Positions 12,381 through 14,658 of a DNA stretch of 35,497 nucleotides are shown one piece after another. Origin of the DNA: a virus. Every line of letters begins with the position of its first letter. Positions within the stretch are counted from its first letter, which is position 1. The stretch covers positions 1 through 35,497 of IMG/VR virus record IMGVR_UViG_3300044522_001092; one strand, 5' to 3'. Both the position numbers and the translations under genes were made by a program. Under the pieces are notes generated by a model that saw nothing but the letters and a program-made list of their open reading frames with translations, ran no database searches and had not been told where the DNA came from.

Positions 12381-12496
12381 CGTGCGATCCTCCGAGCGAG
12401 TAGTGCCAGCGAGAGGACAGGCACGGTCATGGTGAGAAAATCGAGAAAATAGCCGAGCGAGCGGCATACGGCGGAGGGGTCGTTTAGGTCGATCAT
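12377..12496 (-). CDS. Very small membrane protein, 39 aa
   Basis: This tiny gene starts at ATG 12496 and ends at TGA 12377. Both ends overlap the neighbouring genes by ATGA, which supports it strongly. It begins MIDLNDPSAVC, then has one hydrophobic helix of about 20 residues containing FLDFLTMTVPVLSLALL, and ends in ARRIAR. The basic end suggests a cytoplasmic C-terminus. Without the overlaps it would be too short to call. No function can be assigned. Confidence 0.55.
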   Translation of the reverse strand: MIDLNDPSAVCRSLGYFLDFLTMTVPVLSLALLARRIAR

Positions 12497-12681
12497 TTGG
12501 CCCTCCCGATTGCGCGGCTAAGATCGTTGCCACCGAGCTTGAGCGCCTTCGTTACTTCGGCCTCGTCGAACCTCCACCAACGCCCAACTTTAAAAGCCGG
12601 GATGCGGCTGTTCCTCGCCCATTCCTCGATGGTGTATTTTGCCACTCCGAGGCGAGCTGCCATGGCGGCTGAGTCGATCAT
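12493..12681 (-). CDS. Excisionase-like helix-turn-helix protein
   Basis: This 62-aa protein matches the small MerR-like helix-turn-helix family used by excisionases: AAMAARLGVAKYTIEEWARN (about residues 5-24) is the HTH, followed by the wing RIPAFKVGRWWRFDEAEV, where the GRWWRF motif is characteristic. It could direct excision with the integrase, or act as a regulator in the early operon. Its start overlaps the RHH stop as ATGA. Since it is encoded away from int, on the far side of the switch region, a pure regulatory role is equally possible. Confidence 0.78.
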   Translation of the reverse strand: MIDSAAMAARLGVAKYTIEEWARNSRIPAFKVGRWWRFDEAEVTKALKLGGNDLSRAIGRAK

Positions 12682-12839
12682 TTCGAGGCCCTCCGTTTGT
12701 TTTTACGTTCCACCATTTCACGCACGGCTTGGACTATCACTTTGCTTGGCGTGATGTTGTCAGTGTCTGCTTTGCGTTTGATTTCCTCCCAAAGTTCCGC
12801 TGGGAAGCACGCGCCTTGTTTTCTGTTTGCTGCTGTCAT
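12678..12839 (-). CDS. Ribbon-helix-helix (Arc/CopG-like) regulator, 53 aa
   Basis: This protein has the Arc/CopG layout in only 53 residues: an N-terminal beta strand (KQGACFP, about 7-13), helix A (AELWEEIKRKADT, about 14-26), the turn DNITPS, and helix B (KVIVQAVREMVERK, about 33-46), with a basic tail. It should bind DNA as a dimer of dimers. I start it at ATG 12839; an in-frame ATG at 12875 would place the operator-like GTGCAC sites inside the coding sequence. It is the first gene of the leftward early operon, so it probably represses or tunes its own promoter, like an RHH Cro or repressor. Confidence 0.8.
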   Translation of the reverse strand: MTAANRKQGACFPAELWEEIKRKADTDNITPSKVIVQAVREMVERKNKRRASK

Positions 12840-12842
12840 GCG

Positions 12843-13001
12843 GTGCACTTTTTTATATTGGTGCACTAATATCAATAAAAAAAGTCAATGGGGGGTTTCC
12901 CTACCGTGTATTTTTATATTGACATCCGCATGAACACTAGCGTTGCGGGGGGATATTTATTTTTAAGTGCACTGCAAAAAATATCGGTTGCATTGGTGCA
13001 C
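12843..13001. promoter_or_regulatory. Divergent control region with four GTGCAC palindromes
   Basis: GTGCAC occurs at 12843-12848, 12861-12866, 12967-12972 and 12996-13001. Two copies adjoin the leftward RHH gene and two the rightward RHH gene; a longer shared form, ATTGGTGCAC, is found at 12857-12866 and 12992-13001. A minus-strand TATAAA lies between the first two, where a bound repressor would block it. The region is A/T-rich, with TTGACA at 12919-12924 on the plus strand but no good -10 at the normal distance. It very likely holds divergent promoters and operators; the exact promoters are not certain. Confidence 0.7.
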
Positions 13002-13024: not shown

Positions 13025-13324
13025 ATGGGTCGTCCGAAAAAAACAGATGCGGAAAAAGTATCAAAGCCCGGGGTCGCTTTAGACCCTGAGTGCAGAGATA
13101 TTATTGCCCGCATTATAGCTTATGAAATGAAAGTTCGTGGGTCAGATATGACTCCGTCACAAGCTATCAGAACATGTATCCGCCAAGCTTGGCGCTTACT
13201 ATTTAAAGATCTCGAAGAGGGAAAAGCCCAAACGGTTGTTGGTGTCGTGATCCGGCCAGCCTCCGAGAGTTCCGTTTCTGGACCGTCAACTCGTATGAAG
13301 AAGAACTCCCCGAAGGCTTCCTAG
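13025..13324 (+). CDS. Ribbon-helix-helix-like regulator, sole plus-strand gene (99 aa without frameshift)
   Basis: The start is ATG 13025 (MGRPKKTDAEK, a usual opening of RHH/AT-hook-like regulators); GTG 13007 is a less likely alternative. Residues 16-60 resemble an RHH domain: GVALDPECRDIIARIIAYEM, a turn MTPS, and helix QAIRTCIRQAWRLL. It is divergent from the leftward RHH gene and shares the GTGCAC control region, so it is the best candidate for the lysogenic repressor. After residue 67 the sequence AQTVVGVVIRPASESS... looks little conserved. A GGGAAAA heptamer at 13219-13225 is in the right phase for -1 slippage, see the next entry. Confidence 0.75.
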   Translation: MGRPKKTDAEKVSKPGVALDPECRDIIARIIAYEMKVRGSDMTPSQAIRTCIRQAWRLLFKDLEEGKAQTVVGVVIRPASESSVSGPSTRMKKNSPKAS

Positions 13325-13428
13325 GCAAAGTAATCGACCTAACTACCGGCGAAGACTCCTTGCACCCAGACACTTACCTAGACAAAGACGGGGCTGATGG
13401 GGGGGGGGTGGTAACTCGCTCCCTTTAA
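13207..13428 (+). CDS. Minus-one frame extension of the plus-strand RHH gene (frameshift candidate)
   Basis: In the -1 frame an open stretch runs from after the TAA at 13204-13206 to the TAA at 13426-13428, five bases before the integrase stop codon. It has no ATG or GTG start upstream of its coding-like part, so it could only be made by slippage from the RHH frame. A shift at GGGAAAA (13219-13225) would give about 134 aa, with a C-terminal segment including FWTVNSYEEELPEGFLG and VIDLTTGEDS, which looks more protein-like than the frame-0 end. Near its end is a run of ten G (13399-13408). The alternatives are a sequencing or assembly indel, or a true frameshift mutation. Confidence 0.45.
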   Translation, partial: RSRRGKSPNGCWCRDPASLREFRFWTVNSYEEELPEGFLGKVIDLTTGEDSLHPDTYLDKDGADGGGVVTRSL

Positions 13429-13433
13429 TTACT

Positions 13434-14438
13434 TTACAAAGCCCAAAACGCTTTGGCTTCGCTTTGACGAACTCCCCTAGCATACTTTTCTTCTACCATT
13501 CGAGGCGATGAATGCCCGAGGAAATAAGCGGTTTTGCTGCTGTCCTGCCACATGGCACGGTGCATGGAAGCCGAGGTATGGCGAAGGCAGTTTTGAGGCC
13601 ACTCGGCCCACCCCATTTCATTGCAAAGCTCCGTGCGTTCCCGCTTGATGTAGCCTTCCTCTAAGCAGTCCCATTTTTTCGGGAGGTGTCGCCTTAGCGC
13701 CGGCTGGATCGGGACGAAGCGTGGACGTGGCTTGGGGTCGGTGGATTTCCGAATGGGAACAAAGATTTCTTCGGCCTCGATGTGCTTCGGCAGGCATCGC
13801 TCGACCTCCGAGACGCGCATGCCTCCGAACAATCCAAGAACGAGCCAAGCGCGGAGGCGGTTGTTTTTTTTCGTGAGTGCGAGGAGGCGCTTAATTTGCG
13901 GCATGGTCAAGAGGTGGTGCTCCGGCGCGGCCTTTGGCGTGTCGATCTTCAGCACAGGGTTGACCGTTGCGAGCTCGTAGCGCACAAGCCAGTTGAATAC
14001 AAGGCGAAGATAAACAAAGCCCTGTTGCGCCGTAGTCCCGCACCAATTTGGGCGAGAAAGAAAAGCCTCGATGTGAACCGGCTTGATGTCATTGAGATCC
14101 ATGGCGCCGTATTTCTCAACGAAGTGCCCCCACCACCAATTAAGGAGTCGGGTATGGTTGCCCACCTTGAGCTTCGGCATTCTCACCAGGGTAAATTCTT
14201 TCCACGCCTTCTCAACTGAAAGCCCCGAGGATTCCTTGAAGGCGTCGGTGCCTCCGGTCTCCAATTTCTCAGCCAGCGCATCGCGGTGAAGGCGTGCCTC
14301 GAGGCGGGTATTAAAGAAGGTGCGCTTCTCCTTGCCGCCGATACGCGAGAAAACCACATGCCGGTGTTGGCCACGCACCGTGGCCTCGCGGATGGTGATA
14401 ACTGGCTTGTTGCGTCGTGTTGCGTCCGTTGCGTCCAT
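13434..14438 (-). CDS. int: Tyrosine recombinase integrase
   Basis: This 334-aa protein should integrate the phage at the host attachment site. The N-terminal arm/core-binding domain (about 70-165) is followed by the catalytic domain with Arg208 (GLFGGMRVSE), Lys231 (IRKSTDP), Arg286 (CLRHTSA), His309 (LGHSSPRM) and the nucleophile Tyr319 (EEKYARG). At the HxxR position Asn283 replaces His, as in a number of integrases I recall from Verrucomicrobiota and Planctomycetota. Length is normal for the family. It is convergent with the plus-strand RHH gene and lies next to a tRNA-Thr-like attachment sequence. Confidence 0.92.
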   Translation of the reverse strand: MDATDATRRNKPVITIREATVRGQHRHVVFSRIGGKEKRTFFNTRLEARLHRDALAEKLETGGTDAFKESSGLSVEKAWKEFTLVRMPKLKVGNHTRLLNWWWGHFVEKYGAMDLNDIKPVHIEAFLSRPNWCGTTAQQGFVYLRLVFNWLVRYELATVNPVLKIDTPKAAPEHHLLTMPQIKRLLALTKKNNRLRAWLVLGLFGGMRVSEVERCLPKHIEAEEIFVPIRKSTDPKPRPRFVPIQPALRRHLPKKWDCLEEGYIKRERTELCNEMGWAEWPQNCLRHTSASMHRAMWQDSSKTAYFLGHSSPRMVEEKYARGVRQSEAKAFWAL

Positions 14439-14658
14439 AAGGGCATTTTAAGCCATTTAGAGCAACTTTCAACAAGTTTCAAAGGCATTCAGAGAAAACC
14501 CGCACAGCCAATGCTAGAGCGGTTTAGAGGGCTGTAAAGAGGAGAGCCGACGACGAGACTCGAACTCGTGACCTATCGATTACGAATCGAAAATTGGGTG
14601 CTGATTATTAGCAACTTACAAGAGCGTTGCGCGGGCGTTGCGTTTTTTGCTCTTTTTT
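14439..14658. other. 220-base attP region
   Basis: This non-coding stretch lies between the integrase start and the endolysin stop. It contains the tRNA-Thr-like core (14545-14592), GCGTTGCG twice (14624-14631 and 14635-14642, 11 bp apart), and several CTCTAA-type motifs on the integrase side (minus strand, around 14456-14533). These are possible arm-type integrase or IHF-like sites. No promoter can be called with confidence. Confidence 0.5.
14545..14592 (-). other. attP core: 3' half of a tRNA-Thr(CGU) gene
   Basis: On the minus strand the sequence contains an anticodon loop TTCGTAA (anticodon CGT, threonine), a variable loop AGGTC, a full T-arm (ACGAG stem, TTCGAGT loop, CTCGT stem), the acceptor strand CGTCGGC (14552-14546) and a discriminator base at 14545. 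The 5' acceptor strand and D-arm are absent, so this is not a functional tRNA. Phages that integrate into tRNA genes carry just such a 3' segment to restore the gene. Its position next to int supports attP. Confidence 0.75.

Follow-up and report, generated by a model that had tools for sequence, protein, structure and literature searches.

A conserved slippery heptamer suggests two C-terminal forms of a putative phage switch regulator

Results

Gene layout around the slip site

The window, that is the whole 35,497-nt stretch of viral DNA analysed here (IMG/VR record IMGVR_UViG_3300044522_001092), has a layout of the temperate-phage type. The features on which the analysis is built are listed below by their positions in the window.

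12678–12839, minus strand: divergent second small RHH-like regulator gene (MTAANRKQ...), with two GTGCAC sites directly upstream
12843–13001, no strand assigned: four GTGCAC palindromes (at 12843, 12861, 12967 and 12996), putative operators of the divergent switch
13025–13324, plus strand: frame-0 regulator gene, 99 aa (ATG at 13025, TAG at 13322–13324), with counterparts kept in relatives L001, L002, L126 and L094; it comprises a putative RHH-type DNA-binding domain (about residues 15–60), a linker and a 32-aa tail past the slip site
13219–13225, plus strand: slippery heptamer G_GGA_AAA (GGA is codon 66, AAA codon 67), also the exact 5' border of a cassette that differing N-domains share
13219–13428, plus strand: −1 frame segment GKSPNGCWC...SLREFRFW...GKVIDLT..., giving a 134-aa fusion protein upon shift
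13233–13265, plus strand: possible stem-loop 7 nt 3' of the heptamer, in the window-type subfamily only and without covariation support
13237–13344, plus strand: conserved core of the −1 domain, CWC ... DLT, 36 codons
13322–13324, plus strand: frame-0 stop TAG inside the −1 codon CTA_G, kept in 86 of 93 relatives
13434–14438, minus strand: convergent tyrosine integrase gene, 334 aa

The preliminary description of this DNA had placed GGGAAAA at 13219–13225 in the G_GGA_AAA phase of the 99-aa open reading frame, and both position and phase were the same on re-reading. The −1 frame is open from 13207, just past the TAA at 13204–13206, and ends with the TAA at 13426–13428, nearly reaching the integrase open reading frame, which ends at 13434; there is no ATG, GTG or TTG among its 73 codons, as had been reported. 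The proposed product sizes were likewise reproduced, with 99 aa in frame 0 and 67 + 67 = 134 aa after a shift, whereas the frame-0 tail, previously given as 33 residues, counts 32 past the heptamer. This tail is basic, rich in Ser and Thr, and predicted to be disordered. Standard gene callers would give the short form only and miss the −1 domain.

Some further details of the neighbourhood were registered. A short open reading frame beside the divergent regulator (12493–12681, minus strand) looks like one for an excisionase-type HTH protein. A run of 10 G stands at 13399–13408, shortly before the −1 frame closes; in many relatives a G run of variable length occupies this place, often right before the −1 stop (for instance GGGGGTAA), and it is absent from L094 and others, so that it could be a mutable tract. 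Beside the integrase start, positions 14545–14590 resemble the 3' half of a tRNA (anticodon arm and T arm, minus strand); ARAGORN found no complete tRNA gene there, and the segment is probably attP.

Identity of the regulator, its operators and the −1 domain

The RHH label given to the gene in the preliminary description is supported indirectly: related N-domains match RHH_1/Arc just below the cut-offs (20.2 bits for RHH_1 against a cut-off of 20.5; best PDB match of their profile MetJ, E 0.3), while the window regulator itself has no match in Pfam, PHROG or NCBIfam. Its frame-0 model has helices at residues 21–37 and 44–59 behind an extended segment, with low confidence (pLDDT 59.7). By its pattern and these weak profile scores below the cut-off, we treat the protein as a putative RHH regulator. 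For the −1 domain, profile searches of Pfam, PHROGs and PDB gave nothing significant, and its model is a single helix of low confidence; a fold search with the two low-confidence models, frame-0 and −1, was empty.

GTGCAC occurs in four copies in 35.5 kb, all of them within 12843–13001 between the divergent regulators, two ahead of each gene. Upstream of several further N-domain types different words are repeated (GGTGCTA, GTGCACA, CTTATAA, TTGCCAA), and these are nearly absent elsewhere in their loci. All these words are putative operators, and their distribution fits autoregulating repressors of differing immunity specificities.

Relatives and their slip sites

Relatives were collected by searches with the −1 frame peptide and then with profiles made from the module, which gave a set of 93 loci including the window, with identical copies removed and nearly all from IMG/VR contigs; 70 unique relatives served for start-codon and slip-phase counts and 36 sequences for the open-frame test. 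Two host MAGs point to Chthoniobacterales, and we take the family to belong to numerous uncultivated phages with verrucomicrobial hosts. Two contigs with the same regulator as the window (L001, L002) keep GGGAAAA, both tails and TAG, and the peptide search also returned contigs where this −1 module stands behind a regulator N-domain of quite another kind. All 93 loci encode a small CWC...REFRFW...GW...DLT domain, always in frame −1 relative to a short open reading frame for a regulator.

The window's type of slip site, GGGAAA[A/G] in phase, is present in 74 of the 93 loci. One more (L172) has an A_AAA_AAA heptamer, and the remaining 18 have only A_AAA or A_AAG tetramers with no X_XXY_YYZ heptamer; such A_AAR tetramers are frequent by chance. 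These 18 include single-base variants, for example GGAAAAG in L144 where L143 has GGGAAAG. Divergent chromosomal copies keep the heptamer in L094, L096 and L100 and have GGGAAAT in L097. All GGGAAA words found within 60 nt upstream of the domain in the 70 unique relatives are in the slip phase (63/63), and this placing, together with the open −1 frame, exceeds chance. Since the distance between heptamer and CWC varies from 15 to 48 nt across the relatives, the heptamer is conserved within a linker that is otherwise variable. Thus both frames and GGGAAAA are kept among the relatives, which is the outcome that the preliminary description had linked with real slippage.

In L182, L189, L190, L195, L197, L200 and L234, which are without GGGAAA, the cassette starts with a common GCAAAAATCTTCAA behind differing regulator domains, a possible second type of slip site (A_AAA). 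In L118 (5001–5543), as well as in L129, L134 and L146, there is no −1 stop before the ATG of the next gene, for a predicted 137-aa lipoprotein, so that translation after a shift could run on into that gene. In a Chthoniobacter MAG partial copies of the module stand alone (L093 1501–1650, and L095, which is L054 2237–2434) with 50 nt of common sequence downstream, and they appear to be remains of prophages or small mobile pieces.

A cassette shared by different N-domains

Grouping of the N-domains by the 3-mers which they share gave 18 clusters, and one −1 cassette is common to all 18, so it appears joined to no fewer than 18 kinds of regulator. Comparison across clusters covered 113 locus pairs whose modules agree by 80% or more; their identity is about 0.3–0.4 upstream and reaches 1.0 where the heptamer begins. 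Because the alignment was anchored on the heptamer this jump is partly there by construction, but the low identity just upstream is not. Loci L028 and L158, for example, have 99% of the module in common and unrelated N-domains. As homology across families begins at the heptamer, the slip site travels with the −1 domain. A single-frame fusion of regulator and −1 domain was found in none of the 93 loci, and a search of cultured phages and plasmids gave no credible relatives.

Selection on both frames

The −1 sense frame is the only one open in all of the 36 sequences tested; antisense coding was rejected, the antisense frames being closed in most sequences. Upstream of the heptamer the usual third-position pattern of frame 0 was observed in the two N-domain groups that align without gaps. 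Past the frame-0 stop, differences counted in independent pairs fall on the three −1 codon positions as 29/10/86 (p 5e-17), and in the overlap as 145/95/185 (p 6e-7). A second, previously unused set gave 10/5/26 past the frame-0 stop (p 1.5e-4), and in this smaller set the phase bias in the overlap alone was not significant (p 0.17). Judged by these substitutions, the −1 frame is under purifying selection, opposite to the lack of conservation in relatives which had been named as an argument against slippage. In 50 of 70 loci no ATG, GTG or TTG precedes the domain in the −1 frame, and in L029 and L147 a −1 stop stands one codon ahead of the heptamer.

The frame-0 stop leaves a mark of its own. 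In 86 of the 93 loci this stop is a TAG in an unchanged codon position, which forces the overlying −1 codons to end in A (ATA, GTA, CTA, TTA): 91% of them do so, compared with 0–6% at most other Ile/Leu/Val columns, one Leu column being an exception with 57%. This codon pattern is the mark expected of a dual product and not of a decayed gene, and since the stop itself is conserved both products seem to matter.

Stimulatory elements

A stimulator, either a downstream structure or an upstream Shine-Dalgarno sequence, is a frequent and not an obligatory companion of programmed −1 frameshifting. Among the relatives no conserved stimulatory structure was found: folding z-scores are weak on average, covariation in a hairpin of one subfamily is no higher than in shuffles, and an element similar to Shine-Dalgarno lies upstream in only 4 of 63 loci. 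Of the two GGGAAA[A/G] heptamers, G_GGA_AAG is one of the three most efficient motifs in E. coli, and G_GGA_AAA is weaker, being inefficient by earlier work in the same host (PMC4066793).

Discussion

Alternative explanations

An apparent frameshift in one genome comes most commonly from a sequencing error or an indel that recently split a single-frame gene, and the preliminary description named a simple indel as the main alternative. This cannot be upheld for a set of 93 unique loci, in none of which the two parts are in one frame and in which the frame-0 stop is itself conserved; the common arrangement of the relatives excludes an error or indel for practical purposes. Somewhat more room, though still little, is left for separate production of the −1 peptide, by internal initiation at a non-standard start with AGGGA of the heptamer as the ribosome-binding site. 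GGGA is similar to the Shine-Dalgarno core, and G-rich motifs are able to drive weak −1-frame initiation on AUA (PMC4066793). We consider such initiation improbable in view of the 50 loci of 70 lacking ATG, GTG and TTG and of the lack of a conserved alternative start codon at a fixed distance, which the variable length of the linker (15–48 nt) precludes.

The −1 segment adjoins the integrase gene and might therefore be an attachment site, so that the phage would carry the 3' end of a host gene, restored upon integration, and selection would act on that gene; part of the module indeed occurs in an ATG-led 65-aa open reading frame of a Chthoniobacter MAG. This copy, however, is without the CWC part and looks like a remnant, and the integrase gene is 3–5 kb off in other relatives. 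A tRNA-like 3' segment, which is typical of attP, flanks the integrase gene on its opposite side (14545–14590 in the window; also in L092). Only 6 of 213 genomes of the order were matched, two of them by spurious matches of 15–16 residues with an internal stop, so that no widely conserved host gene was found, and we rate this origin of the segment as very improbable. Even less is to be expected of a conserved DNA or RNA element, such as a recombination site or structure, with −1 coding as its by-product. In its favour, the exchanged cassette is bounded exactly by the heptamer and one subfamily gives a weak hairpin signal, but substitutions track the third positions of −1 codons, the −1 sense frame is the only one always open, and covariation is absent.

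Proposed function of two C-termini

The frameshift reading of the window gene is thus strongly supported by comparison of the relatives, and the gene very probably encodes an autoregulatory phage switch protein which obtains two C-termini via −1 slippage at GGGAAAA. Most ribosomes would stay in frame 0 and end at TAG, producing the 99-aa regulator with its short disordered tail, and a fraction would slip −1 on G_GGA_AAA to give the 134-aa form with the CWC/REFRFW domain. The N-domain may bind the repeated upstream operator words and repress, the two isoforms being presumably able to mix in dimers, and the −1 domain could be a protein-contact tail altering oligomerisation, stability or the response to an inducing signal. 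If it alters the behaviour of the regulator in this manner, the frequency of slippage would help to set the lysogeny switch. A broader reading, which we offer only tentatively and find rather doubtful, is that a recombining slip-site cassette is common to many unrelated phage repressors, and that the proportion of isoforms is set by slippage, and through it by the translational state of the host, which would bias the choice between lysis and lysogeny.

A regulator made in two forms by frameshifting would be unusual for a phage switch. If true, recoding joins the means by which temperate phages establish immunity and monitor their host, and more than 90 unique loci provide a comparative set for measuring what governs slippage in an unstudied phylum.

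Comparison with known systems

Programmed −1 frameshifting is known in IS elements and, among phages, mainly in structural genes. Like the shift proposed here, that of the lambda G/GT-type tail chaperone is a −1 event in a phage gene, takes place on a heptamer of G_GGA_AAG type and yields a minor product extended at the C-terminus; the gene in the window, in contrast, encodes a small DNA-binding regulator next to the lysogeny switch, and its frame-0 product runs 32 residues beyond the slip site to a conserved TAG. The motifs X_XXY_YYZ or A_AAR and two products from one start are also features of dnaX and IS3-type systems, which differ in function and protein families, and there is no proven stimulator here. 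With MetJ/Arc/CopG RHH repressors the window protein has in common the N-domain pattern, size and putative palindromic operator words by the gene, but it matches no RHH model, and no counterpart was found for the tail coded in the −1 frame.

By analogy, the nearest precedents are two regulators. FseA of ICEMlSymR7A (msi172/msi171) is a frameshift-fused transcription regulator governing excision of a mobile element (PMC5009743, PMC10359603). Fusion of a regulator by frameshift is the common feature; the +1 shift, two larger open reading frames, DUF2285 domains and the role of activator belong to FseA alone, while the shift in the window is −1, regulator and −1 domain have no Pfam match, and no sequence link to FseA was seen. 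The cro gene of Lactobacillus phage A2, like the gene described here, combines −1 frameshifting with a lysogeny switch: frameshifting during its decoding in E. coli shortens the product by 12 aa, an effect registered for a single phage and apparently irrelevant in the natural host (PMC5009743). The papers searched contained neither a description of phage repressors that conserve a −1 site as a family nor a link between ribbon-helix-helix proteins and a frameshifted phage regulator. Programmed −1 frameshifting as such is known, and its use in a switch regulator, together with a cassette shared among regulators, appears to be new.
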